This document shows positions 2,898-57,600 of a stretch of DNA of 64,000 nucleotides, in pieces. The notes under the pieces are model-generated. The model worked only from the letters and a program-made list of their open reading frames with translations. It did not search any database and had not been told where the DNA came from. This stretch comes from Elusimicrobia bacterium RIFCSPLOWO2_02_FULL_39_32 (GTDB lineage: Bacteria; Elusimicrobiota; Elusimicrobia; 2-02-FULL-39-32), in NCBI GenBank assembly GCA_001800135.1, contig MGUU01000016.1, forward strand, positions 62,001 through 126,000, read 5' to 3'. The position numbers and the translations under genes are program-made. How positions within the stretch are numbered: the stretch's first letter is position 1; every line of letters begins with the position of its first letter.

Positions 2898-2921
2898 TTC
2901 ATAACCATCGCTCAAACATTA

Positions 2922-2939
2922 AGAACCGATATTGGTTCT
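2922..2939. promoter_or_regulatory. Inverted repeat upstream of pfkA
   Basis: AGAACC and GGTTCT form a perfect 6-bp inverted repeat around a 6-nt spacer, ending 25 bp before the pfkA start codon. It could be an operator or a small leader hairpin. No family can be named, and one short palindrome may be chance. Confidence 0.3.
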
Positions 2940-3010
2940 GGGTCATTGGTAAGCGCTGGATTTTCATCTCCTTTCTGTTTTGGGACATAGATTCAGCTGA
3001 ATGTTTCATT

Positions 3011-29697: not shown

Positions 29698-32600
29698 CTA
29701 CTGAACGATTCTTTTATAATAATCTTTAATGATATTCTCCTCAGATTTAGGATACTTTTCCTTAAGAGATTCTAAAATCTCTTCCCTAAACTCTCTAGGT
29801 GGAATATATTCATCAGCTCTTGGAATCCTAACCGCTCCAGACCTAAAGCCTCTCTGCCCCTCTTTTTGCCCTTTTAATCCAATAAAATTTGAAGGATCGC
29901 TTTCTGATTGTTTTTGCATCTGTTTCATCTCTTGCCCGCTATTTTCCAACCCCTCTTGAACTTTTCTTAAATGAGAAAGAGCATTTTGTTGATGACCCAA
30001 AGAAGATCCGCTCTCCTTTTGTTTTAGAGAATTTTCACTCTTTTCCATTTCCTCTCGCGCCTGCTTCATTGCGTTTAAAGAATTTTGAGGCAGGGTTGCT
30101 GTGCCCTGACCCAACTTACGGAAATCCTGATGCAGTTTTTTAGCCTCTTCCTTTAAGCGATCCTGCTCATCCGCTAAACTCTTTAATTTAGAATGTTCTT
30201 CCTGGCTCCACGCGTTATCTTCTTTAGACGGATTTTTAAGCTGGTTTAAAATAAATTGTTCATCTTTATTAATATTTCCTAAATCTTGAAAGGCTTTGAT
30301 ATCTGATTTAAATTTTTCCTGATTTGCTTGAAGACCATCAATAATCTCTTTTAGCCATTTTTGTGAAAAAATAACATTTAGTCCTTCTAATTCCTTTAAA
30401 ACATTTTCCATTTTTGGGATTAAATCCTTTAGCATAGAGTTAAGAATTTCTTTCTCTCTTCTTATCTCCTCACACTTTTTAATAACCTCCTTTTGTTTTT
30501 TTGCTAACTCTAACAATAAATGACGTTGTCTTTCTAAAACTAAAGCTTTTTGTTTTAAATCTAATTGATTAGTAGCTTGTAGAATCTTCTCCTGATCCCT
30601 CACAACTTGATCCAATGCTTTTAATTTCTGCTCCGCCTCTTGATCTAGGAGCCGATCCTGATTGGCAACTGTTTCTTCCGCTGCTTTGGATAATAGTTCT
30701 CGAGCTTGACGCGCCAAATCCAGAAGTTTTTGAGCTAAAGAAAGAGCAGCCTTTAAATCCCCTTGGGCAAGCGCATCGTTTAATTCCTTGAGCTCTTTAG
30801 ATAAATTTCCAAAATTCATGCTTTTTACAGAAGCTTTGTTTACAAACTCTTCTGGAAGTTGTTTTGGAAAATCTTTTATCTTTTGCTGTATCTCTGAAAG
30901 TATATTTTGCGCCTCTTTTAGAGTTTGCTTCAGCAATTGTTTAAGACTGGCATCCAGAACTTTTGACTCTTTCAGTTTAGAATTTAATAAATTCCCTTTT
31001 TCCAATAAATGATCTGCGGAGTGAATTAAATCTTTCATCCTGCTTTCCCTATCTACATTTTCAGCTATTGTATTTAACCGTTCCAACTCTTGTATAGCGT
31101 TATCCTGTTCTTCCACTCCTTCTTTCCAACTTTTTAGATTAAGTTTCTTTTGCGCTTGGGACATTGAACCTTCTCTTAAAGCGCCAAGTTCTTGTTTGAT
31201 GGAACGGTGTTCCAAGTAGCTCTTATAATCACTGTAGGGGTCGTTCCCTAAAAGTTCTAAAATTTCTTCCAAATTATTTTCTAAATTTAAAGTTTTTGCG
31301 GCAGCCTCGGCCTGTTGCTCCTCTGCTTTCTTTAATTTTTGAGATAATTCTGGTTCATTCAACTCCGCCTTTTCCCATTCTTTATTAGGAGCTCTTGCTA
31401 AGGTTTGCTCTGCTAAGAGATCTAAAAGGTCAGCCCTAAATTTTTCTAGTTTTTTCTGAACCTTTTCATGCTCTTTTTGACGGTCTAAAATCTCTATGGT
31501 TACAGTTTGAGAAAATGCGGATTTTGGACCTTGCACCAGATCATTATCTTGAACTTCTAATTGCAATTTAAGAACTTCTTTGGGATTGACTTTAATGGAG
31601 CTTAAACTAAATAAAAAGTTATCTATTTTTTGCGCGCTTGGCGAATCATATTTCTTCATCAGAACTTTTTCCTCTTGTCTGCCCAATCCTTTTTTGATTT
31701 TAAGGTAAATTGAACTTACCCCCACGTCATCTTTAAATTCAAAGGTAAAAGGGATTTTAGATTCCATTCCCACTAAAAGATCATTTACAGGCGCAAGCAG
31801 CCTAATTTCCGGGAAAAGGTCTTTCTTCACTAAGCAGGTATAATGCACGGTTTGAACAGGTGAAAAACCCTCTTTATCTTTTAAATCAAAATGGAATTCA
31901 AAGGGTTGGTGCGCTGTAAAGCTTATTAAAACTCTGTCTTGCAGGATTTGAACTGGAAGTCGCATTCCTTGAGAAGTAACCATTTCTATAGATTCCAAAT
32001 CTTTAGTTGGCCTTGCGGAAATCTGCACTTTAGTGCCAGGATAAACATTTATTTGCGGCTCGCCAGTTAAAATTTCATCTTTAAGCCCTAAATAAGAGGG
32101 ATAAGAAAACTGCAATCTAAAATCAGTTAAACGAGGTTCTTCCACAGGGAGAATAGTATAAATTCCTGTTTCCATGCGAGCGCATTTTACTTTAAAGGAG
32201 ATTTCTTCCTTTACAGAAGCGATCTTAAAATTAAATTGTCCCTCTTTCAATTCAGGTTTAATCTCCTCCCAGCGGTCTGCCATTTTCAGATAAAGCTGCG
32301 GATTTGCTGAGGACTCTTTCAGAAGTTTTACGCTAATATTAAAAGGCTGCCCATAAAGCGCCTTCCCCCCTAAAGGCGCAATATGCAAAAGTTGAAAAAT
32401 CTCTTTTTCTCCTCCTAAAAACAAAAGGTTCCATGCGGAAATTCCAGATTTTGGCAATAAAAAAGTAATTCCTAAAATAAGAATAGAAGAAAAAGCAAAA
32501 AACCTTAGAGCTTTCTTTAAATTTTCCGGAACGATCCATTGTTTAGGATTTTCTTTATCTAGTAAGGTTTTTACTGAAACAATAAAAGCCTCTTTTAAAT

Positions 32601-32943
32601 CTGGAGAGATGCCCGCAGGGGTTGGACTGCTGGAAAGTTCTATGGCGCTAAAAAGGTCTTTAAATAAAGAGGATCTTCTTGCAAGAGTATCACAAAAATT
32701 TTTAATCTGAATTAATTTTTTAAATTTCTGTATGAAAAAATAAATAAAAATCAGAATAGAAATGGATAAAAAACAAAGAATGATCTTTCTAAAAAAAAGT
32801 TCCCAAGGAAAAATTGCGGATAAAAGAAGAATGGAAAGTGAACAGACAATTTGACTAAATAAAATTAGTCCCTGTTCAATCAGGATACAAAAAACAAACC
32901 TGTTATAATATGGTTTAAGGCTCTTTAACACACCTTCAATCAT
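29698..32943 (-). CDS. DUF4175-like large membrane protein with long coiled coil
   Basis: A 1081-residue protein with two N-terminal helices (about 20-70) and a third near 145-165, a beta-rich extracytoplasmic part to about 480 with repeated folds, then a long helical/coiled-coil region (about 480-1010, Gln/Lys/Glu/Leu-rich). The C-terminus VRIPRADEYIPPREFREEIL...YYKRIVQ matches the typical end of DUF4175-like proteins. These are uncharacterised, probably envelope-associated. It begins 28 bp after the first giant gene stops and may be transcribed with it. Confidence 0.75.
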   Translation of the reverse strand: MIEGVLKSLKPYYNRFVFCILIEQGLILFSQIVCSLSILLLSAIFPWELFFRKIILCFLSISILIFIYFFIQKFKKLIQIKNFCDTLARRSSLFKDLFSAIELSSSPTPAGISPDLKEAFIVSVKTLLDKENPKQWIVPENLKKALRFFAFSSILILGITFLLPKSGISAWNLLFLGGEKEIFQLLHIAPLGGKALYGQPFNISVKLLKESSANPQLYLKMADRWEEIKPELKEGQFNFKIASVKEEISFKVKCARMETGIYTILPVEEPRLTDFRLQFSYPSYLGLKDEILTGEPQINVYPGTKVQISARPTKDLESIEMVTSQGMRLPVQILQDRVLISFTAHQPFEFHFDLKDKEGFSPVQTVHYTCLVKKDLFPEIRLLAPVNDLLVGMESKIPFTFEFKDDVGVSSIYLKIKKGLGRQEEKVLMKKYDSPSAQKIDNFLFSLSSIKVNPKEVLKLQLEVQDNDLVQGPKSAFSQTVTIEILDRQKEHEKVQKKLEKFRADLLDLLAEQTLARAPNKEWEKAELNEPELSQKLKKAEEQQAEAAAKTLNLENNLEEILELLGNDPYSDYKSYLEHRSIKQELGALREGSMSQAQKKLNLKSWKEGVEEQDNAIQELERLNTIAENVDRESRMKDLIHSADHLLEKGNLLNSKLKESKVLDASLKQLLKQTLKEAQNILSEIQQKIKDFPKQLPEEFVNKASVKSMNFGNLSKELKELNDALAQGDLKAALSLAQKLLDLARQARELLSKAAEETVANQDRLLDQEAEQKLKALDQVVRDQEKILQATNQLDLKQKALVLERQRHLLLELAKKQKEVIKKCEEIRREKEILNSMLKDLIPKMENVLKELEGLNVIFSQKWLKEIIDGLQANQEKFKSDIKAFQDLGNINKDEQFILNQLKNPSKEDNAWSQEEHSKLKSLADEQDRLKEEAKKLHQDFRKLGQGTATLPQNSLNAMKQAREEMEKSENSLKQKESGSSLGHQQNALSHLRKVQEGLENSGQEMKQMQKQSESDPSNFIGLKGQKEGQRGFRSGAVRIPRADEYIPPREFREEILESLKEKYPKSEENIIKDYYKRIVQ

Positions 32944-32971: not shown

Positions 32972-35900
32972 TTACTGGTTTGTTTCTACTAACTTTCTGG
33001 AGCGAGAATCTTGGTCAAAAATTGGTGTGAGGGGTTGAACCTTGCTGCTAGAGAGAATCAGCAATACCCTAATCTTTTTTTCTAGATTACTCGTTATCTT
33101 AAACAAACTCTCATTGCTGGTAAAAACCTGCACAAACAGTTCTGAATCTAATCTTTTTAATTCTAAAAGTTTAGCTTTTAATGCTGAATAAAGAGCTTCT
33201 GCCTCAATACCTTTGACTGGATCCATTTCTTGCAATGGCAATAAATCCTTTCTTGTGACTACAATTCCTCCAAAGCAAACATTCCCCAGCATTTCATCTG
33301 TGAGATTGTACTGATTGATCAGTTCTCTTCTTAACTTAAAAATATCAATCTTATCCTTGTTCGTAAAAAGAGGCACAATGATCTTAGTTCCTGTTTTGTA
33401 CGCGAGCTTGATCTGTTTAGCTAATGTTCCAAGTTCAAGATCAGAGTAATCTCCGACATCAAAGGCATTAATGATCAGATTATTATTTTTTACAAACGCC
33501 ATTTTAAGATAAAACCCAATATTCGGAATCATGGCTCTCGCCAAATTCATGATAAAATGAGTCGCAAAAGAAAGGAAAACAATAGTTGAAAAGGAAAAAA
33601 TCAGGAAAGGGAATTGAAAAGGGAGAAAAGGCAATGCGATGTTAACTAAAGCAATGAGTACCGAATCTCTAAAATTTTCTGGCGGGGCGCGCGAATTAAA
33701 AAATTTTGCCACTAGCGGAGTATGTCCTAATACAAGAATAGGCCATGTTCCCAAATAAGAAACCTTAAGCGCAAGATCAATATCCCCAGTAAAGATAAAT
33801 GCCGGCAGACCAAAGAAGATACTGCTCACAAAAAAAGAGATGAGATTTTCCCACCATGGCGCAATGATGAAATCATAATTCTGATAAAGAATTTTTCTAT
33901 ATTTATGGGGAAGGATTGGCAAAAGAAATTTTATTGTCTGTTTCTTTAGCCATTCCATGACCCCCCCATTATTTTCTTTTGCAACATTGCCGTTATTATC
34001 TTCATCTACCAGATCAGGATTGTTTGATTGAGATTCTGTTTGAATCCCGCGCTTACCAGCCTCTTCCTTGAGCCATTCATACATCAGCAAAGCCACTTCT
34101 TTGCGTAAACTGCGATCGTTGGCTTTATCCGCTGTTTCTGAATGAAAAACTTCAAAGCTCAGGTTCTTAATGTGTACTAAAGCGCGAGGTAGTTCACCCC
34201 ATTTCTCAACCATCCATGCCTTAATATATTCATCTTCTAAATTTTTAAAATATTCCTGCATCATTATCTTTAAGGGTTCCATCCCATCTGGAAAAAATAG
34301 TTTTTTCTCTTGATCTAAAGAATTAATCATTAGAATCAATGTCATAATTTTTTCCATGATGCCTTCAATTCCTAAACCATATCTTTCCAACAACTCCTCA
34401 TCTTCATTATGATTCGGAGTCTGTTTCAAATGCTCAAGATACTGCTCTAATGTCATGAGTTCCTCTAAATCTGCTTCCTCACCCGCAAAGGTAAAATCTT
34501 GCCAATGTATGGATTCTTTAAAGAGACCCGAATTTTGCTTAACTGCTTCTGTGCGTCCCAATTCTTTTGCGATCCTATTTATGAGTTCTTCTTCAGACAA
34601 AACAGTTCCTTTAGAAATTAGACCCATACTAAAAAGAGCCCGCGATATCCTTTTTCTTAAACCCAATAAATTAGGGTCTCTATGCAAAAGTTGAGAGAAT
34701 TTAACAAGCCGATGGGGTGTCAAGACCCGGTAAAAAACCATAGTAGGATTCACAGGATTTCCATTTGAATCGTCAAGCTGATCTGCATTGTTAAATTTTC
34801 CTAATCCATCTGGAAGCTGATAAATTTGACGGTGCCCAAGCAGTTGGATAAATCCATTTTTTTCTTTTAAGAGATGATGCCCTTCTACAGCTCTTCTTGC
34901 CTCATCCTGAGAAACAATTCCCTCATAATAGAATGATGCCTCTAAATCTCTATTCAATAAATAAGGCATTTTTCCAAAACCTCGATTCTGTCCTGATCCT
35001 TTTACAGCCAGCCATGTTCCATCCTTTAAAGGGAAATAAACGGTCCGTCCATTCGCCACGTTCCAACTCCTAAACCGATAAGTCTCATCTCTATTCTTTG
35101 GCATATCCTCTGGTTTCATCACATCATCCGTAACTCCAACAATTATTTTAAACCCCTCCATTGCCATGCGCTCTGCCGTATCTGCGGATCCCGCCATTCC
35201 TGACAAAAACGCGCTATGACTATTTAATAACTCTTCCCCGCCAATCTTATCTAGAGTCTTTTGATTCACAACATTCAAAGATCCAACCTGCCCCTTATTT
35301 TCTTCTAGTACCACCATAAATACAGGACGGAGAGAACGGTCATCCAGCAGTGCTTCCAACACCTCAGGAATAAACGATTTTTTGAGTTCCGGGTATTGGG
35401 TAAGATTATTATCCTCAAAATATTTATCAAGTTTAATTTCAAATGCCGATTTATCTTTAACAAATTCTTTTACTTTCTCATAGCCAATGGTAAAACCATC
35501 CTCAAATATAAAGACTCCTTGATTTGTTTCTGATGGAACAGACCTCAATATCCCGCGGTGTGTCATCCTATTTTCCTGTTTTCCCTCTTCATTTAGTTCA
35601 GGATCAAAATAAATAAAGGTAACCTCATCTCTGGGTTCTAAAGTCTCCAAACCTTGCGCAGGTTTTTTTTGCCATTCGCCTAGATAAATCTGTTTTGATT
35701 TTTTAGTTTGTACAGTTCCTAATATATTTTCTGCTGTGATTGGCGATAACTTTCCTCTATAATTTTGTTTTAAAAATGGAACAAATCCATGAATAGAAAA
35801 ACCTGTGCTATTTTTATATTCCTGGGGCAAGTTGTAATTTTTTTGACGCGCAGGAAGATCAGAACTTAATCGCCAAAAATTTCCTAAAACCCTTTTATCT

Positions 35901-38900
35901 GCAACATGAGTTCTTCCATCATTCAATGATACCGCTCTGGCAAACAGACTAGCGTCCGCGAGGTAAGTCATTCCTAAACCGCGGCCGCTTTTATGCATCA
36001 TCCTAAGCGCCGTGGCTCCTTTCCTATAAGAACCTATACCAAATATTCCTCTAATATTTTCAACGGGATTTAAATTCTGATCAAAAACGCCCGGTCCCCA
36101 ATCAAATGACATATATTCATATCCATCCGGCGATTCTCTCCAAAAATAGACGCCGGAGCCATAAGCATGCTGGAATATATTTTCCTTAATGCCTAATTTA
36201 TAAATGGCATGAATATCGTCATTGGTTTTAGATAAAGCAGAAGAGATGCTAGGCGAGGAGTTTCCATTTAGCGCATACTCCTCATAATTTTCAAGAACCA
36301 AACCATCGAATCCCAGTTTCCGCGCTTCATAAATTAGTTCATCTCTGGAATCTTTTCCTTTCAACCAAATTTCATAAAGTTTTTGAAGCGAATCATCTGA
36401 CTTTATCTGCTTGTCATTGTCCCTATCCAATGCTGAAGCGCTAGAGCTATGAGTAAAATCTTTTGTTCTTCTCATTCCAGTAGATAAAACTCCTGCTTCC
36501 TCCAAAGTTTTAGGGCTCCCTTCATTGAACTTTATCCCATATGCCTTAGAAAGGAAATGTCGAACAGCAGGTTGTCGAATCAGTTCTAATGCATCTTCTA
36601 CCCGATTAGAAGACAATGTTAAATAATTTTCTAATCCCCGGAGTAAATGTTCCAACTGAATAGGAGGATTTTCTTCCAGCTGTTCAAAAGAATCTGACAA
36701 AATTTTATCTAATCCTTCTTCCTTTGCTCTTTTTGCGCGTATAATAACCCACCTTTTGATCGCGTAATTAATATAAAGCTGTCGTAAATCAGTTTCTTTA
36801 AATAGTTCCTGATTTAGTGTAATCAGTTCTTTTAATTCATCCGGAGGCATGGGAGACAGCCACTCAGCAAGATAGGTAGGAGATATGCCATAACTAAATT
36901 TCACCTTGGGTAAAAGCAGAATGGATGCTAATCCTTTGATTAAGATATGAACTATTTTTTGATTTTTCTTGGTTTTTAAAATTGCCCTTTGTATCCATGT
37001 TGCAGAGCCGCTAATGGTTCTTTTGAATTTTTGTCTTGCGGCTAAATCATTATCTACAATCTTAAGCCAACGCAGCAACTGTTCTTTTTTTAAATCAAAC
37101 AAATCTATTGATTCAGGAGGAAGGGGCAAACTTTTGATCCATAGTTCTAATTTTGGAAGGTGATATAAAATCAAAGATCTCAAAAATTTTATATTCGTTG
37201 TGCTTTTTGATTGCAACTCTTTAGCTCCAAAATAATTCAGCATCAAATGCTGGAGCGCAAACTCAATGACTCCAAACCGAAAAGCTTGTCCATGTTCTGA
37301 TCTTGCATGGACGCCTACTGATAGATAAGGCAATAAATCTACTATATCTTGAAAAAATTGAAGGGAATTAATTTCACTCTCCTCAGTCTCTGCAATACTT
37401 CCTACATCTACACTCCCAGGATACATCTTAACTGTCCAGCCTCCTTGTTCAGTGATCGTCTGTTCCACGGCTCTCCTTAAACCTTTTGCTGGATCATAGA
37501 TCCTTACCTTTACATTCGAATCCAAGGAAGAAAGTTCTGTACCTTCAGGCACTAAAAGATAGGAATCAGGTGATAATTGGAAATCGCCTAAAATAAAAGT
37601 ATCGTTTGCAGAAATATTGATCAGCTGTCTCTCTAAATCTTTCAGTGGAGAGACTACAGCATAGGGTTGCAGCTCATGCGCTGCGCGAACTAGTCCTCCT
37701 AACGCAAAATGGAGTGTGGGTCTAAAAAATGGCTGATCATCAGATTCCCAATCAGCCAATCCCCTGCTTTCTTTCGCTTCCGCCTTTAGAATGCCTTCTT
37801 TTGGAAAAACAGAAGTTGCATGCACAGCAAACAATTTTGATTTAATTTCTTCTGCTGTTTTTGGTTTTACACCCTTGGATGAAAAAATCTGCTGTTTTTT
37901 TACTTCCATTTCAAGCTCTCTAAACATGGTTTCAACTGAACTAGAAAAAAATAACCGCTTTTGATCCCTGTCAAATTGAAATCTGCTGGACTGCCAGTCA
38001 TGCCTCACAAAGAGATATTCAAGCGCTTTTTTACCGCCTGCATCGCGTGTATAACTAGCTGCATCGGATTGATAATACACGGTTAAGAGATCGAAAAACT
38101 GACTGATAGGCAAAATCGTATTGTCTGCCATAGTTCTAATTTTTTCTGCTGCTTCTTCTAAACTAATAAGTTTTTGAAGGTACATCCCAATTGGATCGCC
38201 CTCAAATAAAACAAGCATTAAAGCGATTTGCTGCTCACTTAAAGGAAGATGACCTGAAATTTTTTCAATGATCTCTCTGGTATAGAGATGCTGGTCTCGC
38301 ACCCGATTTTCTTTAAAAGCTATGGGCTTTCCAATATCGTGAAGAGCAAGCATTAGTTTAAAAGTTCGTTTATCAATTCCTGCCGGTAACTCAATACTGC
38401 CAAAATATTTTTCAAACTGTTTTAAAACCATACCCGTATGTTGTTCTAAAGTATAACCTTCACTGACCCCTGTTTTTGCCTTATATAATTTTGCAAGCAT
38501 TGGATCTCTTTTTAAAACCCTGATAAGATCTCGAGGTTTAAAGTCTGCCCTTTGCAGCACTTTAGATACCGCTTCTTTAATTGGCAGCTCATCAAATAAA
38601 TGAAATTTATTTTTTATAACAGAGGCAACTAAATTTATGGATAAATGGATAAGAGACGATTCAATACTGAAAGGCGAGAAACCAAAATAAAGGTTAATAC
38701 TGGCAATCATAACTGAAAGGATTAGATTAGTGGCGGCTTCTTTAGGAGGGCCGCGCTCACCATCCTTCCCAACAAAATTAAAGAGGTGCAGAATTACAAA
38801 TGTTCCCCAGCCCCATTGAGAAGAGATCGTTGATGCAAGATGAATATTCCCGCCTGTAAATAAATAGACTGAACCATAGGTTAATCCATAAGAAATTAAA

Positions 38901-41900
38901 TTCTCCAACCATGGTGCAATTCTAAAATCATAACCCTTGGACGAAACTTGTGGAAATAAGGTTAATACAAAATCTTTAATTACAAAAACGATTCCTCCTT
39001 CATCTCTTTGCTTTCTCCTTTTTTTGGTCCTATCTATTTTTGTTTTTACTTTTGAATGATATGGGAGCTTTAAAACCTGTTTAGAAAAATTTCTATTTTT
39101 TTGAATCTCTAGATAATAGTCGTATGGGGTCATTTGTTGAAGCTGAGTTAAATTCCTTTGCGCAATGGCAATATTCATGCTAACGTCATCTTTAAATTCA
39201 GCGGGTGAAGAATCAAAAACAATTCTCAGAAATTCAATTTCTTTTTTTAATTTAGCTGCATTTGCTAATAATTCATAAGTATAATCCCGCCAAACATTCC
39301 AAACATCAATATAATCAGATGCCCATAAAAGTGTTTCTTCCAATGCATTGATAATTTTTAAAAACTCTCTCTTTAAACCTTCTGAATTCATTAAAGCCAC
39401 CATTCCTTCAGAAGTAAAACCAGATTTTTCAAGGAGACGATTATTTCTTTCTAATTTAAAAATTCTACCTTCCCAGTCTCCTATTTTCCCTTGCAATATT
39501 TGCAAAATCGCTTCTTTATTATCCGAATACTGCCTATGAGCACTCTGAACAATTTGTTTTAATGACGGATAATCTTTTTTATAAGTTTTAGAAGCTAAAC
39601 TTAAACCATGTTTTCTGATCGCTAAATAGTAATCAAATGCAATAAACTTTGCCCATAGAAACAAGGCTACTTCCACATGATCCGTTAATATTAATAGATG
39701 ATTTTTTTCTTGCTCTGAAATTTTTCCAGATTTCACCAAGCTGTTTCCCAACCCCTCAATCGCATGTTGAAATCCGTTATTTTCTCTAAAACCTTCTATC
39801 TCGTAGAATTTATGTAAAGAAGTCCGTACAGCTCGGTATAAATCTAAAGTCGTGTGATTATATTCAAAAGGAAAATGATGAAGAGGCCGAACATCGTAAT
39901 AATCTGTAAAAGCACAGTCAAACTCTCTATTTAAAACAATCAAATTCTCTACATGGGACAATGGGACAAAACCTTCAGCTAGATGCTCTCCAATCTCTCT
40001 GCCCATTTCATAAGCAATTTTTCTAACCTTTTCATTCTTATCCATAAAATCATAAGCATTGTTATTATTAAAGCTAGCTCTTACATTCCCTGGAGATAGT
40101 CTCATTAAATAACCTTGAACCTCATTATTTTGATTGATAAAGTGCGCATTCGCTAAAGCGCGAGGCATAAAACCATTTTGAAATCGAGCCCTAGAACGCA
40201 TGGCCTCTAAATTTTCGTATTCTAAATCAGACTCTTCTACTACAGCTCCTCCTCTTAAATAACTATCTTTATAGCCAAAACCACCTTCAGGAGCGCCAAC
40301 CCCTTTGATCTCAACTATGAATTCCTTTCCCCAAATTTCAAGCACAACTGGTAATCCATCTTTTAATAAAACACCACTCCTTCCAGTAGCTCTGCCCGAC
40401 ATATGATCTTGCCCAACTGCCATCAAAACAGAGTATGGGCCTTCAGTTCTTGAAGAAGTGTGGAAAATTTTCCCTGCGCTAAAAAGATCCCTTAACCAGC
40501 TGGGCAGACTTGCCCACTCAAAGCTTGTGTTCATCTGTTTAATCTCTACCTCTGCCAGCGTTAATGGCACTCTCTGCATTTCACGATCTCCATCCCACCC
40601 TTCAAATAGAGATACAGTTTCTGGATCTATATCCCGCACACTTTCAAACTGGAAAGATTTTGAAAAGACTGGTTGAATTCTCCCATGCTCGTCTCGCACA
40701 AATCCCATCAAAGATCTTTTATTTAATTTTGCTTTAGAAAATCTCTTTCTTAATTCATCTTTGAGAATTACAGTTACCTGTCTCTCCCTTAAATTCTCAT
40801 CTGAAGGATGCTCGCTAGTGAATTCAACTGGCTCATCGTTTAGTTGTTTGAGCAGTTCTGTGCCATAAAACTCCATAGCGTACTTTACAATAGGATGAGC
40901 ATCTCTTTTAAGCAATTTTTTACCAGTTTTAGCTCTTAATATTTCTAAATTCATATAATCAGCTATTTTCATGGGTCTTGAAACCACAACTTTTCTATCT
41001 GATTCTTCTAATTCTTCCCATGCGCGCCTAATTTCCACGCTGATGATATCTTCCAGGATTAGAGCCTGTTCTAACTGCGCAGGGACTTCTATGATATTTA
41101 AATGTTTTGCCAGTTCGCTTCTTAACTCTCTTCTTTCTCCTTCTTCCATTGAATGAAACTCTTTATATCGTTCCAATATCTGCGCTAATTCTTCACCCGC
41201 ACTAATGCCAGGTTCTATATCTCTCTTGCTTGCACGGCTGCGATCGCTTCCTCTGGCTTGCTTACCTTTTCCTCTCCTAGGTCCCTCTTTACCTTGATTG
41301 CGTTTTCCTCGTTTAGATTTTCCTTTGCTTTGTTGAAGAGCAATTCCAAACCTCTTCATTTCATGAATACTAAACTTAAGTCTTGAATCAGAAAAAACTG
41401 CGGCTAAAGCTTTTCTAAAATCACCCTGAAAGTGTGGAACTACTACAGAATTCAAAACATCCCCTAGTCCCCAGACGATAAAGTCTGCGGAATTAATTCC
41501 ATAAATATCTTCTCGAAGCTTTTGGACACTATTTTCATCATTTTCAATTTCATAAAGGCGGTCATATCTATCTATGAGTTCCGGACGATTTTGAGCAATA
41601 GCATTCCTTATATGATCAATTGCCCTGATTTTTGAAGTCCAATCTATCTCCTCTCTGGATACAACTGCTTTTATAGCTTTTAAGAGGTATATATTTGAAC
41701 TCACATCTTCTAAAGCATGACTTACCAATTCTCCACTGAGTGATTCCTGCCGAATAAATCTTTCTGCACGATCTCGAAACAGCTCCACAAAATTTAATTC
41801 TAAATATAAACTTGTTACATCATCCAAAATATCCTGATCGCTTTCTTCCACTAAACCGCTATCTCTATAAGGCAAAAGCCGCCAAAGCGCCATAGAATCT

Positions 41901-43696
41901 GAATAGTTAAGCCTTTCTTTTAATTCATAAAAGATAGGAAGGAATTGCTCTGTTGCAATATTAAAAGAGTGACTCATGGTTTTATTATCTTCCCTCATGC
42001 GCTGTCCAATATTTTCTTGAGAACTTATGCCTGGCGTGTTCCATAAATTAAGATCATGATTAGGCAGGGATGCAAAACCATTGCCAATAATAACTTTGGC
42101 AGCTCCTTCTGGTATGGGAGGTATCTGCCCTGTTTCTTCTGCATACTTTAAGTTCCACCTTGCAACCAGCGCATGTACAGCAGAAATATCTGTGCCTGAT
42201 ACAGCTTTTGCGCCAAACCTAAGAGCATAAAGCAGCCCAACGCCTGAACCAACTCCAATTTCTAAAACAGTTTTATTTGGGAATAAGTGACGTTGTTGGA
42301 AAAGTACCTGTTGATAATCTATGCTTTCACCCATCCTAGGTGAAAATACTCTATCATGACTAAGAGTTATCATTTGAAAAGGCTCTCCAAAACTAGGGTA
42401 AAGATATGGATTCCTACCTATATCTGGAGCAACACTCTCTATTTTAAGTTCTACTTGAGTTTGCCTCTCTATGGAAACAAAATTTTCTGCAAATAAAATT
42501 TTAGCTGCAAGGTTAGCCTGATCCAACCTATTGAAATCTTCATTCATCTCTCTATATAAAGGTAATCCGGATAAATTTAAAAAATAGGGTTGTTCCTCCA
42601 AAATTATAATTCCATAAGGACGCTGCTCATTTTTATCCCCATTTGAATGAGTTAGAAGGTATGCTTGTCTAGGAGAATTCTCTAAATTAAATAATTCTTT
42701 AAAAAAAAGATTTCCTTCTTCGCTCATCTCAATCGGGATCGCTCTGGATTTTTCTCCTATCTCTTGAGTCTGATCTTTTCTTAAATTCCCCAAAGAGTTT
42801 AAAATTGTGTCAAAAGTTTTAGGAGCCATTAAACCATCTCTATCCACAGGAAAAATTTCATCAGAAGTTCTACCCATCCCTCCAAAAAATGAGAGCAAGG
42901 GAAGATGCCACCATCCAACTTCAACCCCTAAATTCCAAATAAAGTGAATGGCCCAGCTAACTGCAAAACCAATATGAAATGGAAGGAACAGAATAGGAGC
43001 AATTAAGAAAATTTCACCAATAGCTCTTTGCCAAAAGGGCTGAAAAAGTTGCTTGAGCGCTCCTGTAAAAGAAGGGGTCTCATTCAAAATCTGTTTATTT
43101 GAAAACAAATCGCCGTGCAATAGAGCCAAAATTCCACTTAAAGCAAATAAGAGCGCTACTTGAGTTAAAACTCTTCCGACTGGGTCTGACAATAATGCAA
43201 ATATGAGAAAGTGATTTGCAGCCAGAACCAATCCTAAAACAAGCGGGGTTTCACTATTTGGAGCGCCTGATATAGGGCTGGTCGTATAATAAAGAAAATT
43301 CCAGAGCCACCATTTTCTCCAATCCTTTTTCCATTCTTGTTTTCTGCCTTTTACCCATTCATGCACTCCTTGAAGCAAGTTTAGAGGCTTTAAATTTTCT
43401 TTTTTTTCGTTCCGAAAAAAAGCAACATTTAGTTCTTGATCTGGCTCATTCAATTGTTCAGATACAGTACGGATGTTACTTTCAATATCCGCCTGATCAA
43501 TGCCCTTATATTCATTCTGATTTCCTGTATTTAAAAACTTACTAGCAGAACGCAGCTTATGTTCGGTTGAAATATTCCTAGAGTAGGCAAATGGGGTTAA
43601 AAGCGTGGAAATTAAAAGAGAAAATACCACTATTAAAGCGGTGCTTTTTTTAAACCAATAGAATAAATTTGAGTAGTAACGCGTTCTCAAAAACAT
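32972..43696 (-). CDS. Giant multi-domain protein (about 3574 aa): methyltransferase, SelO-like, HD, GHKL and CPBP-like membrane modules
   Basis: I start it at the ATG at 43696; a TTG two codons earlier is less likely. A signal/anchor helix lies at about 17-40. Domains in order: CPBP-like membrane module (about 125-275, IHFIWN); methyltransferase (458-510, VLEIGVGSGVG); Lys/Arg-rich linker (789-828); SelO-like pseudokinase fold (1095-1270: IVEIKGVG, YLMRLSPGNVR, HVENLIVL, FTDYYD); second membrane module (1586-1714, APWLENLIS); HD domain (1783-1805, LALHDIGKP); uncharacterised part with HATS near 1958; GHKL ATPase (2508-2575: NIFQHAY, DWGPG, GRGLGM); a second KGxG segment (about 2898-3007); third membrane module (3270-3400); C-terminal alpha/beta domain. 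It is probably membrane-bound or exported. Domain names other than methyltransferase, HD and GHKL are tentative. Confidence 0.85.
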   Translation of the reverse strand: MFLRTRYYSNLFYWFKKSTALIVVFSLLISTLLTPFAYSRNISTEHKLRSASKFLNTGNQNEYKGIDQADIESNIRTVSEQLNEPDQELNVAFFRNEKKENLKPLNLLQGVHEWVKGRKQEWKKDWRKWWLWNFLYYTTSPISGAPNSETPLVLGLVLAANHFLIFALLSDPVGRVLTQVALLFALSGILALLHGDLFSNKQILNETPSFTGALKQLFQPFWQRAIGEIFLIAPILFLPFHIGFAVSWAIHFIWNLGVEVGWWHLPLLSFFGGMGRTSDEIFPVDRDGLMAPKTFDTILNSLGNLRKDQTQEIGEKSRAIPIEMSEEGNLFFKELFNLENSPRQAYLLTHSNGDKNEQRPYGIIILEEQPYFLNLSGLPLYREMNEDFNRLDQANLAAKILFAENFVSIERQTQVELKIESVAPDIGRNPYLYPSFGEPFQMITLSHDRVFSPRMGESIDYQQVLFQQRHLFPNKTVLEIGVGSGVGLLYALRFGAKAVSGTDISAVHALVARWNLKYAEETGQIPPIPEGAAKVIIGNGFASLPNHDLNLWNTPGISSQENIGQRMREDNKTMSHSFNIATEQFLPIFYELKERLNYSDSMALWRLLPYRDSGLVEESDQDILDDVTSLYLELNFVELFRDRAERFIRQESLSGELVSHALEDVSSNIYLLKAIKAVVSREEIDWTSKIRAIDHIRNAIAQNRPELIDRYDRLYEIENDENSVQKLREDIYGINSADFIVWGLGDVLNSVVVPHFQGDFRKALAAVFSDSRLKFSIHEMKRFGIALQQSKGKSKRGKRNQGKEGPRRGKGKQARGSDRSRASKRDIEPGISAGEELAQILERYKEFHSMEEGERRELRSELAKHLNIIEVPAQLEQALILEDIISVEIRRAWEELEESDRKVVVSRPMKIADYMNLEILRAKTGKKLLKRDAHPIVKYAMEFYGTELLKQLNDEPVEFTSEHPSDENLRERQVTVILKDELRKRFSKAKLNKRSLMGFVRDEHGRIQPVFSKSFQFESVRDIDPETVSLFEGWDGDREMQRVPLTLAEVEIKQMNTSFEWASLPSWLRDLFSAGKIFHTSSRTEGPYSVLMAVGQDHMSGRATGRSGVLLKDGLPVVLEIWGKEFIVEIKGVGAPEGGFGYKDSYLRGGAVVEESDLEYENLEAMRSRARFQNGFMPRALANAHFINQNNEVQGYLMRLSPGNVRASFNNNNAYDFMDKNEKVRKIAYEMGREIGEHLAEGFVPLSHVENLIVLNREFDCAFTDYYDVRPLHHFPFEYNHTTLDLYRAVRTSLHKFYEIEGFRENNGFQHAIEGLGNSLVKSGKISEQEKNHLLILTDHVEVALFLWAKFIAFDYYLAIRKHGLSLASKTYKKDYPSLKQIVQSAHRQYSDNKEAILQILQGKIGDWEGRIFKLERNNRLLEKSGFTSEGMVALMNSEGLKREFLKIINALEETLLWASDYIDVWNVWRDYTYELLANAAKLKKEIEFLRIVFDSSPAEFKDDVSMNIAIAQRNLTQLQQMTPYDYYLEIQKNRNFSKQVLKLPYHSKVKTKIDRTKKRRKQRDEGGIVFVIKDFVLTLFPQVSSKGYDFRIAPWLENLISYGLTYGSVYLFTGGNIHLASTISSQWGWGTFVILHLFNFVGKDGERGPPKEAATNLILSVMIASINLYFGFSPFSIESSLIHLSINLVASVIKNKFHLFDELPIKEAVSKVLQRADFKPRDLIRVLKRDPMLAKLYKAKTGVSEGYTLEQHTGMVLKQFEKYFGSIELPAGIDKRTFKLMLALHDIGKPIAFKENRVRDQHLYTREIIEKISGHLPLSEQQIALMLVLFEGDPIGMYLQKLISLEEAAEKIRTMADNTILPISQFFDLLTVYYQSDAASYTRDAGGKKALEYLFVRHDWQSSRFQFDRDQKRLFFSSSVETMFRELEMEVKKQQIFSSKGVKPKTAEEIKSKLFAVHATSVFPKEGILKAEAKESRGLADWESDDQPFFRPTLHFALGGLVRAAHELQPYAVVSPLKDLERQLINISANDTFILGDFQLSPDSYLLVPEGTELSSLDSNVKVRIYDPAKGLRRAVEQTITEQGGWTVKMYPGSVDVGSIAETEESEINSLQFFQDIVDLLPYLSVGVHARSEHGQAFRFGVIEFALQHLMLNYFGAKELQSKSTTNIKFLRSLILYHLPKLELWIKSLPLPPESIDLFDLKKEQLLRWLKIVDNDLAARQKFKRTISGSATWIQRAILKTKKNQKIVHILIKGLASILLLPKVKFSYGISPTYLAEWLSPMPPDELKELITLNQELFKETDLRQLYINYAIKRWVIIRAKRAKEEGLDKILSDSFEQLEENPPIQLEHLLRGLENYLTLSSNRVEDALELIRQPAVRHFLSKAYGIKFNEGSPKTLEEAGVLSTGMRRTKDFTHSSSASALDRDNDKQIKSDDSLQKLYEIWLKGKDSRDELIYEARKLGFDGLVLENYEEYALNGNSSPSISSALSKTNDDIHAIYKLGIKENIFQHAYGSGVYFWRESPDGYEYMSFDWGPGVFDQNLNPVENIRGIFGIGSYRKGATALRMMHKSGRGLGMTYLADASLFARAVSLNDGRTHVADKRVLGNFWRLSSDLPARQKNYNLPQEYKNSTGFSIHGFVPFLKQNYRGKLSPITAENILGTVQTKKSKQIYLGEWQKKPAQGLETLEPRDEVTFIYFDPELNEEGKQENRMTHRGILRSVPSETNQGVFIFEDGFTIGYEKVKEFVKDKSAFEIKLDKYFEDNNLTQYPELKKSFIPEVLEALLDDRSLRPVFMVVLEENKGQVGSLNVVNQKTLDKIGGEELLNSHSAFLSGMAGSADTAERMAMEGFKIIVGVTDDVMKPEDMPKNRDETYRFRSWNVANGRTVYFPLKDGTWLAVKGSGQNRGFGKMPYLLNRDLEASFYYEGIVSQDEARRAVEGHHLLKEKNGFIQLLGHRQIYQLPDGLGKFNNADQLDDSNGNPVNPTMVFYRVLTPHRLVKFSQLLHRDPNLLGLRKRISRALFSMGLISKGTVLSEEELINRIAKELGRTEAVKQNSGLFKESIHWQDFTFAGEEADLEELMTLEQYLEHLKQTPNHNEDEELLERYGLGIEGIMEKIMTLILMINSLDQEKKLFFPDGMEPLKIMMQEYFKNLEDEYIKAWMVEKWGELPRALVHIKNLSFEVFHSETADKANDRSLRKEVALLMYEWLKEEAGKRGIQTESQSNNPDLVDEDNNGNVAKENNGGVMEWLKKQTIKFLLPILPHKYRKILYQNYDFIIAPWWENLISFFVSSIFFGLPAFIFTGDIDLALKVSYLGTWPILVLGHTPLVAKFFNSRAPPENFRDSVLIALVNIALPFLPFQFPFLIFSFSTIVFLSFATHFIMNLARAMIPNIGFYLKMAFVKNNNLIINAFDVGDYSDLELGTLAKQIKLAYKTGTKIIVPLFTNKDKIDIFKLRRELINQYNLTDEMLGNVCFGGIVVTRKDLLPLQEMDPVKGIEAEALYSALKAKLLELKRLDSELFVQVFTSNESLFKITSNLEKKIRVLLILSSSKVQPLTPIFDQDSRSRKLVETNQ

Positions 43697-51628: not shown

Positions 51629-54600
51629 TCACTGCTGAAGAGCGAGCACTTCCCTTGCCTTTTGAATCAATTCTAAATCTTTAGAAATTTCAATCAGATG
51701 AGTTTGAGAGAGTATCACATAAATCTGGATTCTTAATCCTTGTATAGTTCCTTTAAAGACATTCCTTTCTGTAAAAATATCTACTAGTGGATTAGGGATT
51801 TTGCTTAAAGCCCTGATCCTATTAACGATCTCAGTTAAATCAGTAGTTCCATAAACTTGCTTCTCTCCAAATTTGATCTGTTTTAATCTGTTAGAGTCAA
51901 CTCCATCTACATTTAAATCTAATATATCTTGGATGAGATGATCTCTTTGTGCAAGAGTTAATGGCTGACCTTTAGATGAATAAAGGTAAAGTCTTTTACC
52001 AGAAGGCAGTCTTCTTATTCGATCCGCTAAAAGATTGATTCCATTGGATGAGAGATCATCCACATTAAAGAGTTCAATTCCAGATGTTCCTGTTTCTAAT
52101 GTAGCCATAGAGTCTAAATCTGCTGTTCTAATTAACCTAGAACTATAACTCCATTCTTCAACTCCTTTCTTCCTTTCTGCTTCTTTTCTTCTCTTTACAT
52201 TCTCCCATATCTGTTTTGCTGAGTCCTTCATAGCATCTGAGAAAGTAGTTTCTGGATAAAACATCCTTGATAGACCCTGATATGCTTTCCATCTTGATTC
52301 AAAGCTAATACCTAAATCATTTGCTCCACCAGATTCAAAGAGAACTGTAGCTAAATACCCAAAATGTTCCTTTATCACTTCTCTATCTTTACTATTCTCT
52401 TTACTATCTCTATACCTCTGATACAAACCCTCATAAGCAGTTATAAGTTCAGAGAGTTCTATTTGAGCTAATTCTTTAGAATTGAGGAATCTAGAAATTC
52501 GAGCTGTTTGTTGGGGTTCTAGTTTATCTTCCTTTTTAGATATGCCTTTGATCCCAGAAATGATTCTAGCCATCTGTATTAAATGGATGGTATGAAGTAT
52601 CTGTTCCAGTTGGTCTTGTTCTAACAACGATTGAGATTTTATTTGATTCAGTAATTTTTCTGGTTTGGGCAATAGTCCTTTGGATAAATCTTTTTGAAGC
52701 GGTTCTCGGCTATTTTCCGGTAATTGTTCCAATAAATTATTTAAAAGAGTAGATTCCGGAAGAGTTTTGCTCCCTGTAAGAATTTTGACTAAATTAACAA
52801 TCCCCCATACTACCAATGATACACCACCAACAAATAGACCAATGGGATTAATAGCAGCCAAAATCAATCCGTATTCTACCGTACTCGTTCCTTCCTCGCC
52901 TGCTAGTATTTTTCTAACTTTTTCCCATTCAGATTGAGTAGGCGCTTTCTCCTCCTTTACGCTCTCCTCATCTCTTAGGATTGTGGGTTGTGGCATCTTT
53001 CCTCTGGCTTTTGCCATCTCTTCTTGGGCTCTCTTAGACAACCGATCTTGCGCATCCCGATAACTCTGCATTAACTGATCGAAATTTGTGTGATTAAAAC
53101 GAACAATAAATAAGGGGCCATCCTGTTCTACCACTAAACCTGTGTTCCTTAATTCATCTACACCTACAGTTGCCATAGACTCTACAATCTGCTCCATCAT
53201 TGCCATCAGCTTATATTGGTTCTGGTATGCCTTAAAATCTTCTCTTCCTTTCAAAGCTTCCATCTCTTCAAAAGATACTTCATAAAAGATCAGTTCAAGC
53301 TCTACATCTGGATTTATTTCTTTTAGTCCAGATGTTAGTTCTTCCAGCACTTTTTTGAAAGAAGGAGGACCTCTCACTTTGGTATCATACGCGGTCACAA
53401 AATCTTCCGCCTTTTGCCTGGTAATGAGAACTCTTTCTTCTTTCCCAAAAATATCCGCTTTATTTCCTTCTAGCGCTTTACCGATCTTCTTAATCGTTTG
53501 ATCTCCGCCCTTATGCTGTACTTTCTCTTGCCATTTGTGAAATGCTCTCTCCCTCCCTAAAGTCCTAAAATAACTCAATACTTTAAAAAATCCAAAGAAC
53601 TTTTGATTTCCTTCCACAGCAAGCTCTTTAAATCTGCCAACACTATAGAGATCAGTTAAACTATCCTTACCCTCATCTTTTGCTTTAGCTTTCATTCCTT
53701 CTAAAGCTGCTGCGGGATTTTCTATCATCTCTCGGGTAACTTCTGGACCTTCAAATTTATCCGCATCTTTTTTCTCTTCTTTTGTACCTTCACTTTTTTC
53801 TAACTCATTGGGGTTTTTATTAGGTTCGAGCAAGTCTTTTAGATTTTCTGGAACAAATCTTCTATTTCTCCCTTTATATTTTGCTTTCCCAACTGCAATA
53901 TCAGATAACTGCAAGCCAATCAGATAAAATAACTTTAGAAAATCTTCATCTTTGCTCTCAAATTTGTTTAATAACTCTTCTCTGATACTTTTTATAGTTG
54001 AAGGTTGATTTATTTCTGCGTTTTTAATCGCTTCAGCCATATACTCAATCACAGTTTCAAATGATACCGCCCCGCCACTCAATGTTAAGAATCCAACCTC
54101 TTTATTTATTTTTGTATGCGTTATATCCATCACTTTTTGATTGGTTACAACTTTCTGGATTTCTTTCATCAAATCGTTGGTGTTTTGTAATCCTTCACGA
54201 TTCACCAAGATATTGAACCCATTCCCATGTTCTTCCACTACCAGAACCCCATCCAATGCCCTTATCCTGCTTTCCTGCTCAGCAGTCAACTTGCGAGACT
54301 CAATTCTAAGAACCGCATATCGGTCCCTAAATGCAATCGTATATTTTGCAATCACATTGTTAAGTTTTTTATTAATCGTTCCAAATTTCCCATTAAACTC
54401 AAGGATGATCTCATCCGCGCCTTCTCCTATGTATAGATTTCCACCTTCTTCTTCCACAACCCTCTTTAATATCTCTCTGCCTTCCCTAAAGAGTGAGTGT
54501 TCTGACTCCAATGTCCCAATAATCCCTTTGCCGTATAACAAATTTAAAGTGCCCAGCATATCCCCATCTAACCGAATGAACCAACGATCTCCAAATTGTT

Positions 54601-57600
54601 CAACCTTTATTTCTTTTAAAGCATCAAGATGACGCTCCTCTCCAACATAATTTGAGTCAATCACTTCATTATCTTCTCGCATGGTTCTTAAGGGATTAAA
54701 CATAGAGGCAGGGGAGAGATGCGCGATTGCAAACAGGATTGGATTTATTTTTCTGTGTTGCAGAATAGCTTTGGAAACAGAAAGTTTTGCCTGCTCGATA
54801 AAGAAATTATAAAGCGTATGTAAAGCTAGGGTGAGGACAGTGGCTGTGATAGGATCTAAATATAAATATATGTGGGTTACGGATAGAGAAAGAAGATTGT
54901 TAATAAAAAACTTAATCGCATCTTGGATCAGCGCTTTTGGCTTAAATAGCTCTTCTAAACCATGCTCTTTGGCTCTTACCCACCACTCTACAATCGTATG
55001 AGAAAATGCAAACATAGAGATTGACCATAGATTCCCTAAATCTGAAGCTGTATTTACATCTATCCCAAAAAACAATACCAGCCCTGCTGGAATCACAAAT
55101 GTCCCCACTAACATAAATACCGCAGTCTCCCAAGAAGGAGATGCTTTGATTGGATCACCTAACTCATATAGAAAATTGTGTAAATGATCTTTGAAACTTT
55201 TAGGCTCTATAATCTTCCCTTTACGATAGATAGGATAAAAAATAGAGGCGAATGGCGGAGATGAGGGTTCATCTTTATCTTTTAGAGTAGAATCAGCCAA
55301 TGGCTCTTCCGTATCTGATGGCTCTGATCTTTCTCTCGCACCTGGCAATAAATCAGCTCTTTCGCTAAAATCAAAGGGTTTAGTTTCTTCAACCCACACT
55401 TCATACACTTCACTGAATGGATAGGGTGAAGGTGACTCGTTCCAATTCACAGTCAATGGCAAATCTGTCTTTCTGGATTCGTATTTCTCTTGAACAATTT
55501 TCACTATCCCTGGCCTATTAGAAAGTAAATGCGATTCCTGTGGATAATATAGAGCTTGATAACCGCCTCTTCTGGCGATCTTGATCAGTGCGCTCTCTAT
55601 CAAAGAATAGACCTCCTCCTCCTTCACCTGCGACAACAATTCAATGTTTGGGTCTATCCCTGGAACTGTTAATACCTCTCTGCCATTGATCTTCTGCTTA
55701 AAAATTTCCACAAAGCCATACACTTTCCCTGACTCCCTATCAATTAAAGCTAAAAGCATAAACTCTTGTTTTTGCCAAAGTGTGACATCATCAGCAGTGC
55801 AGACGCCCGCGTTCAACCCCCATAAACCATAAGGAATCCCTTTCACTAAACGAAATTCTAAAGTAATCTTCCTATCTACTTTCCTATATTCAAACTTATC
55901 TTTTTCTCTAGTAATCATCTCCAAAGGCTTTTTGAATAACCCCTCTATAATCTTTGTAACAGCCATTGGTTCTGTCTTGCGCGGACCATGAGACAATAAT
56001 GAAACCAAATCCCTTAATTCCAAATCCTCAATCTGATTTAGAACTATTCTCTCAATCCCTTCTGGATCAGTCTGCTGCACAATCCTCCCTATAATCTCTC
56101 TCTTGCGGCTCTTGTCCACCCTAACCTGATTCCAAATCCGTTCAATCTCTCGAGCTGTATTTTGTAAGTGAGCATCGCTTTTTTCCTTTACTAAGGAACT
56201 CACTGGAACTAGATCAGGCTCCTCTTGAAACAACTCTTCAATCACCTCCCTTAACATAATGGAAAAAAGCCCTTCAACAACAAAAAGTTCTTGCAACATC
56301 CCTAACCCTTGATAATCCTCAGGTAAAATTTGCGAAACCAATTCTTTTACTTGATCGTCATTCCTTGCAAATTCATAAAAAGAATTTAATACTCCCCCTT
56401 GATCCGTTGAATTCATCTCATTAGAAAAATAAACCTTTAACCTTTCTTTAAGATTCTCTCGAGCTTTCTGACTTTGCTCCTCCCTATCTTCTGAATCTCC
56501 TTCCCTCTCTAAATTAAGAGACTGAAATAAATTCTCAATCTCTTTTTTTGGATCCAATATCTCTCCCTGTTTTAAAACTCGTTCAATTAGCCCTATCGCG
56601 TCCTCTTCCCCTTCACCAAAATCTATGCCTCTTAAACCTTCTGGAATTTGTCCCCTTAAATCCCCTGCCTCTAATATCTTCTCAAAATGTCCTCGTATAT
56701 CTTCCCTCTTCACAGTGGAATCGCCTGAAGTAGGTAAATTAATCTGTATCGCTGCAATCAAAACTTCCATCCCATCCGCTCCTTTCTCCTTATACCTCTG
56801 TATAAACTCTCTTATATCTTTTAGTTCCACCTCATCCCGCACACAACGATCAGAAAACTCTTGCAAATCCTTAAAAATACCTTCTCCTTCTTGCTTATAG
56901 AGCCTATACAAACTAGGACTAAAACTATGCAATCCCTTTATAAATTCCCTGATACGCTTTTGCTCTTCCAAAGGCAAATGAACATCCACAACCTCTTCTC
57001 TCATCCCTTCAAATAGTCCGTCCAATATCTGATAACCTAACCTTTTCTCTTCAGCAAGAATAGAATCATAAAACTCATAATGATCAAGGATATTCGCTCC
57101 CTTCTCTTTTAAAAAATGCAGATGGCTTTTTTTACTCACAACAAAGTGTTCCATGCCTAAAAGAAGATCAATCACTTTACCTCTATTATGTTTAGAGGTA
57201 TGAGAAAGAATGCTGAGCCATCTCTCTTTTAATTCATCGAAATCCTCATCTGCCCATTCAACTCCAAGCTGAGCAAATCCCCGGAAAAGTTTCCAGGAGG
57301 ACTCCTCAGCAGCTAATCCTAATTCAAGCAATTCTTTCCAATGTTGAATCATCCATGGCAAGCCGAACTTTCTTTTCAAGGTCGGAAATCCAAACCTAAA
57401 AAGCAGATGCGCTTGCTCACCAGAAGCCTGATTAAAAATTAATAAATCTCGTCCTTGCTTTTTTAAAAATTTGTGTCCAAATATTTTCCATAACTTATAC
57501 TCCATATCAAGCTCAATGACTTTTTGACTAATCATTAATTGTTCTATATCTCCAATTCTGGCTCCATTAATGATGTAAGAAGAAGCGCCAGCTAATGACA

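Follow-up and report, generated by a model that had tools for sequence, protein, structure and literature searches.

A Giant Multidomain Protein of the Class Elusimicrobia with Two SelO-Like Domains and a Layout Shared with Cysteine-Poor Sister Giants

INTRODUCTION

Huge proteins of the Elusimicrobiota have already been described (PMC11573180), and the giants of the Omnitrophota mix methylases, kinases, peptidases, LysM domains, and transmembrane (TM) segments (PMC12419801, PMC10066038). In the Omnitrophota, giant open reading frames (ORFs) have been linked with predation and with attachment (PMC10066038, PMC12419801), and giant proteins of these phyla are also the subject of a preprint by West-Roberts et al. 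(2023), as cited in PMC12057145. Most such proteins are unannotated. Here, we analyzed a 64,000-nucleotide stretch (the window) of the little-known groundwater organism Elusimicrobia bacterium RIFCSPLOWO2_02_FULL_39_32, namely positions 62001 to 126000 of contig C16 (MGUU01000016.1) in a 2.52-Mb, 97% complete draft genome of 27 contigs, and within it a gene for a 3574-amino-acid (aa) giant protein. The protein fits the described kind in being very long, multidomain, and equipped with TM segments, and domains homologous to its own occur in metagenome-assembled genomes (MAGs) of Omnitrophota. An earlier interpretation from the DNA letters (the sequence-only reading) had held that no described protein with this set of domains was known, which may be true of the exact set but not of the kind (PMC11573180, PMC12419801, PMC10066038). 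What we would call new is a four-part layout shared among giants. Neither this layout nor the 3574-aa protein with its SelO-like families is described in the mostly open-access literature that was covered, a scope outside which the West-Roberts et al. preprint falls. The common layout makes unrelated-looking giants one testable class, yields search models, and predicts export and possible self-cleavage.

RESULTS

A family of cysteine-poor giants with shared termini

The 3574-aa giant is best explained, from its sequence features, as a member of a Sec-led, cysteine-poor, membrane-threaded giant protein family of the class Elusimicrobia that would carry interchangeable enzyme cassettes. In this member the cassettes would be a methyltransferase, two SelO-like domains of nucleotidyltransferase type, an HD phosphohydrolase partnered by a DUF3626-like stretch, and a GHKL ATPase. 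At least 11 ORFs of this layout, 2033 to 13472 codons long, are present in the source genome; they come from regions fetched around domain matches, and the total may be higher. Sec-type leaders, judged by eye and hydropathy from a basic n-region followed by a hydrophobic stretch, begin 10 of the 11 giants, and several of them end in APFA[EQ]A or PPFAQA. Hydropathy along the 3574-aa giant shows an N-terminal signal helix and three hydrophobic modules, bearing out the signal helix that the sequence-only reading had placed there (Table 1).

The sister giants hold diverse domains. The 13472-aa giant, whose 3' part lies in the window, has ABC1 kinase matches, M48 peptidase matches, LysM, and the membrane module described below; a 9927-aa giant has ARMT1-like and APH domains, a 7356-aa giant has M48 and ABC1, and a 4880-aa giant combines a pyridoxal phosphate enzyme with HATPase and Rce1-like domains. 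Two further leader-bearing giants were observed: a 2452-aa protein (L198:6238-13593, contig C2) with proline dehydrogenase, a divergent phosphoglycerate kinase (PGK), and a HAD hydrolase, and a 4433-aa protein (L197:5998-19296, contig C25) with a SecA-like motor region of 580 aa. Ordinary free PGK and SecA genes are also present in the genome.

As a set, the giants are poor in cysteine. Only 2 of the 3574 residues of the giant under study are cysteine (binomial P of 3e-14 at the background rate), and the 11 giants together have 94 in 69,694 residues (0.135%) versus 1.05% across 81 other proteins encoded in those fetched regions, a roughly eight-fold depletion. It extends to embedded enzymes, with 1 cysteine in 400 residues of the embedded PGK versus 4 in 405 of the free one, and none in the 580 residues of the embedded SecA versus 7 in 903. 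Elsewhere in the class, giants have 0.0 to 0.5% cysteine, and Omnitrophota giants are mixed (0.0 to 1.4%).

The C terminus is likewise shared. A C-terminal domain (A7) was found at 27 places, spread over 10 of the 196 class genomes searched, and the 24 copies with a complete end all close their ORF, with a gapless tail whose last two residues are Q, N, or S and then Q, A, or S. The terminal Q-[QA] is among the most conserved columns of the domain. About half of the 11 giants carry the domain by hidden Markov model (HMM), and all 11 end in QQ, NQ, SQ, QA, SA, or SS, as do none of the 81 background proteins, a contrast that is descriptive, the set of end residues having been chosen after the ends were seen. 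The domain was not found in 11 Omnitrophota genomes.

An intact gene with a colinear ortholog

The ORF has no internal stops, and its codon composition is even along the whole length. Its ortholog, in the only other genome of the genus that was found ("Elusimicrobia bacterium NC_groundwater_250_Ag_S-0.2um_38_13"), has 4336 codons and is colinear, with 76% identity over aligned columns. The ratio of nonsynonymous to synonymous substitution rates (dN/dS) between the two is 0.28 overall, less than 0.33 in every tested segment, and 0.15 to 0.28 in the enzyme domains. Judged from these codon comparisons, both genes are under purifying selection. The sequence-only reading had taken the ORF for a single protein and had named frameshift-joined genes as what would undo that claim. 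Separate genes joined by an assembly or frameshift error might be suspected in a draft of 27 contigs in which related repeat arrays lie on short, broken contigs. Nevertheless, this explanation is improbable in the extreme and was rejected, because the ortholog in an independent genome is colinear over its whole length and lies in the same place beside a DUF4175 gene; chance is excluded on the same ground, and the absence of stops and the selection along the whole length also count against an artifact.

The ortholog differs by an extra block after residue 2746, in which another methyltransferase (Methyltransf_11, 3e-7) is accompanied by TM helices and by a second copy of GHKL, and therefore cassettes are gained or lost within the genus. 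In the ortholog's first GHKL copy, the G1 and G2 boxes are altered, as if its role had passed to the added copy.

Table 1 Features of the 3574-aa giant and its surroundings (window coordinates unless a locus is given)
Feature	Residues	Coordinates	Strand	Basis or remark
3574-aa giant protein ORF		32972..43696	-	ATG, 3574 codons, and stop
Sec-type signal helix	1-38	43583..43696	-	R/K-rich n-region, hydrophobic core, ...TPFAYS; hydropathy
Membrane module 1	125-285	42842..43324	-	E149/H194/H251xxxN255; hydropathy
Class I SAM methyltransferase	430-560	42017..42409	-	VLEIGVGSG..GTD; Pfam PrmA on segment
~95-aa domain, single copy	680-780 (683-773)	41357..41659	-	Tandem arrays elsewhere in genome
SelO-like domain 1	970-1400	39497..40789	-	IKGVG, ..PRALA, RLSPGNVR, SHVEN, FTDYYD
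Membrane module 2	1565-1700	38597..39004	-	E1598/H1637/H1684xxxN1688; module HMM 1.1e-37
HD phosphohydrolase-like domain	1702-1930	37907..38593	-	H1753, H1786-D1787, D1878
DUF3626-like region	1950-2240	36977..37849	-	Likeness of L055 stretch after HD
GHKL ATPase-like domain	2418-2684	35645..36445	-	KENIFQHA, DWGPG, GRGLG; Foldseek
SelO-like domain 2	2748-3216	34049..35455	-	K2899, Q3066-D3067, D3076; fold
Membrane module 3	3245-3395	33512..33964	-	E3283/H3325/H3380xxxN3384
C-terminal domain (A7)	3396-3574	32975..33511	-	Ends ..KLVETNQ
DUF4175 membrane protein gene		29698..32943	-	Directly downstream of giant; same neighbor in ortholog
3' part of 13472-aa sister giant		51629..64000, continuing to about C16:154000	-	Module and C-terminal domain ending ALQQ
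Ortholog ORF		L046:4867-17862, contig C5 of same-genus genome		

Membrane modules with a conserved E/H/H/N set

The sequence-only reading had described three membrane modules as a scaffold. The modules are present, but the word misses a conserved residue set like that of Rce1/CPBP proteases, as well as a leader, C terminus, and cysteine content that point to export. Across 26 aligned modules with a mean column identity of 24%, the four most conserved columns are E45, H87, H142, and N146, with the Glu in predicted helix 1 of the four-TM module, the first His in helix 2, and the HxxxN in helix 4. The module HMM finds 43 places in 13 of the 196 class genomes, nearly all within large ORFs, and one weak match in the 11 Omnitrophota genomes. 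Most of the 11 giants of the source genome carry the module. The HMM misses module 1 of the 3574-aa giant, which has diverged too far; its four residues are all kept in the ortholog.

Rce1-like is the best Pfam family for the modules, with matches in 2 of the 26 members (E of 0.0012). The EExxxR motif itself is absent, the modules having mostly E-N, with E-E in a few divergent ones, and no Arg. The modules look like CPBP proteases in residue set and order, a likeness short of statistically demonstrated homology. Pfam Rce1-like domains also occur inside other giants of the class, and one in the sister giant of 6542 aa is without the usual Arg. A Skillet/VanZ lipocone, considered from PMC12419801, was rejected as the identity of the module; the motifs described for it, ExxQ in H3 together with an Asp in each of H2 and H4, differ from what is conserved here.

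SelO-like, GHKL, methyltransferase, and HD domains

The sequence-only reading had claimed one SelO-like domain. Two such regions exist, the second recognized by fold and the first by motif register only. An AlphaFold (AF2) model of residues 2418 to 3216, covering GHKL and SelO-like domain 2, was built from 18 aligned sequences and has a predicted local distance difference test score (pLDDT) of mostly 80 to 95 in the SelO-like part and moderate confidence in the GHKL part. In a Foldseek search that took in 350,542 PDB chains, the nine best matches of this model were all SelO/YdiU (E from 2e-5 to 5e-4, prob 1.00), with TM-scores that are low (0.24 to 0.35 by target) for a query that is a two-domain model. 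The following matches were mainly GHKL ATPases, namely the ATPase domains of GyrB/TopoII (prob 1.00, E from 8e-4). As modeled, SelO-like domain 2 has the SelO fold. Its residues K2899, Q3066, D3067, and D3076 are invariant over a family of 17 divergent sequences, found in mostly very large ORFs of Elusimicrobia and Omnitrophota MAGs.

SelO-like domain 1 has a 38% identical copy inside a 10906-aa giant of the same-genus genome and no relative outside this genus among the 196 class genomes. Aligned to true SelO with hhalign, its motifs are in register, at a nonsignificant E of 0.16. True SelO membership was rejected: PF02696 has no match in the giant or its genome and is absent from 98 class genomes. 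The positions aligned to the SelO catalytic Asp and metal ligands are E1250/N1251 in domain 1 and Q3066/D3067/D3076 in domain 2, in alignments that are not significant. Neither domain has relatives on viral contigs, and a sequence search of the PDB with profiles of both domains, the module, and GHKL gave nothing significant. The two divergent SelO-like families are additions outside the known SelO range.

The sequence-only reading had also anticipated the domains that follow, and it would have fallen had their matches disappeared in profile searches; in the event, the methyltransferase held above its Pfam cutoff, and the other assignments come mostly from fold or motif. Scanned as a segment, the S-adenosylmethionine (SAM) methyltransferase scores 24.3 bits with PrmA against a cutoff of 22, with motif I (VLEIGVGSG) present; PrmA falls below the cutoff when the entire giant is scanned, and the match in the ortholog is 1.7e-5. 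The HD domain is backed by its H-HD-D motif, all four ligands being kept in the ortholog and in L055, a 41% identical relative from another family of the class, although Pfam HD stays under its cutoff of 22 in the relatives (0.018 to 0.033, 14.9 to 15.8 bits). The GHKL ATPase agrees in motif as well as fold, with N2506, the G1 box (D2532-G2534-G2536), and the GxGxG of G2, and motifs are present in three copies, without a Pfam HATPase match in the 3574-aa giant at an E of 1.

These residues bear on whether the giant could be a surface coat or adhesin built from decayed enzyme folds, the pseudoenzymes serving as structural bulk. Coats or adhesins have been proposed for the Omnitrophota giant proteins (PMC10066038), the GHKL domain has no acidic residue at the fourth position ahead of the N-box Asn, its boxes are changed in the ortholog's first copy, and SelO-like domain 2 has a Gln aligned where SelO has the catalytic Asp. 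Nonetheless, the invariance of the four residues of SelO-like domain 2, the intact H-HD-D and SAM motifs, and the low dN/dS of the enzyme domains make decay an unlikely account.

Other features of the protein and its surroundings

The DUF3626-like stretch and the second SelO-like domain are additional to the earlier list of domains. The former was assigned through L055, whose stretch after the HD domain matches DUF3626 at 2e-5, under the cutoff; a Pfam scan of the 3574-aa giant itself gave no DUF3626 match. Long tandem arrays of the ~95-aa domain occur on contigs C12, C15, and C27 and at the ends of C17, C11, and C22, where open frames spanning whole short contigs are probably giant repeat genes broken by assembly. 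The surroundings of the 3574-aa giant are chromosomal and of housekeeping type, with DUF4175, a poly(A) polymerase/CCA head, a TrpS/TyrS-type synthetase, and ScpA/B. Between the two giants of the window, on the opposite strand, lies a 722-aa ORF (49408-51576, plus strand) without any Pfam match.

DISCUSSION

The reading that we favor, tentatively and at somewhat less than even chances, is that the 3574-aa giant is an exported, membrane-threaded string of enzymes that acts on other cells and is possibly self-cut. The leader would deliver the protein to the Sec translocon. The TM modules, which look like reduced Rce1/CPBP proteases, would thread it through the membrane and separate the cassette blocks, and some sorting or export step would recognize the C-terminal domain with its conserved free end. 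Exposed beyond the cytosol, the enzymes would then act upon another cell or within it, in predation or epibiosis, and their release by the CPBP-like modules would be possible. An extracytoplasmic chain is favored because of the leader and the avoidance of cysteine. Export of the enzymes, processing, topology, and target are inferred.

Several observations weigh against this reading. The hhalign comparison of the module with CPBP gave an E of 0.0014, which 4 of 60 block-permuted nulls also reached; the module HMM fails to separate CPBP from shuffles; and the AF2 model of the module, from a shallow five-row alignment, reached a pLDDT of only 46. The predation link comes from the Omnitrophota giants and would apply to this genus by analogy, as processing would by inference. 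The charges of the modules point the opposite way from the leader: the N-flank, loop 2, and C-flank are positive, and by the positive-inside rule the enzymes would face the cytosol. The enzyme classes, moreover, need ATP, SAM, or similar cofactors, unexpected extracellularly unless the enzymes are delivered into another cytosol.

The charges and the cytosolic cofactors are also what would be expected of a membrane-anchored, cytosol-facing multienzyme scaffold, with the leader acting as a signal anchor, the modules doing no more than anchoring, and the enzymes modifying small molecules or proteins of the cell itself close to the inner membrane. The PGK, proline dehydrogenase, and SecA-like domains of sister giants and the housekeeping neighborhood fit this too, and we regard it as a serious if doubtful possibility. 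It sits poorly with the cysteine depletion across the giants, including enzymes whose cytosolic paralogues have cysteine, and with leaders that end in AxA-like sites, and plain anchors need not keep E/H/H/N above all other columns.

The tentatively favored exported string has a bolder extension, namely that the class exports self-processing enzyme polyproteins, with a Sec leader, cassettes, Rce1-type cutting modules, and a C-terminal sorting domain recognized by its Q-Q or Q-A end. We consider this rather unlikely; if true, it would amount to a secretion and processing system not known before.

Compared with known systems, the 3574-aa giant shares with the giants of Elusimicrobiota and Omnitrophota the phylum setting, length, many TM helices, a mixture of modifying or signaling enzymes, poor annotation, and, through a sister giant, LysM. 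In the papers covered, the published giants are described with few or other domains, and none is described with the E/H/H/N module, the Q-[QA] C-terminal domain, the depletion of cysteine, or SelO-like families of this kind. The SelO-like domains resemble the SelO/YdiU protein adenylyltransferases (PF02696) in the Foldseek fold of domain 2 and in three features that fall in register, namely a lysine of KGxG type, a stretch like RxxxPxR, and a late Asp, but they lack a Pfam match, and the catalytic Asp is aligned to Glu in domain 1 and to Gln in domain 2. The C-terminal domain is like MYXO-CTERM-type sorting signals in being confined to the C terminus of otherwise different, exported-looking proteins; unlike them, it is a soluble-looking domain of ~180 aa that ends in Q-Q or Q-A, without a terminal TM helix or basic tail. 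In the modules, most have no second Glu, the Arg of EExxxR is missing, a RAPP loop is added, and the whole is embedded in giants, whereas the E, the H (often within FxxxH), and the HxxxN of the TM helices follow the order of Rce1/CPBP proteases, with similar spacing. The myxosortase MrtX has this residue set in identical order, as E146, H188, H223, and N227 (PMC11980579), and the E-to-H spacing of 42 in module 3 is that of MrtX.
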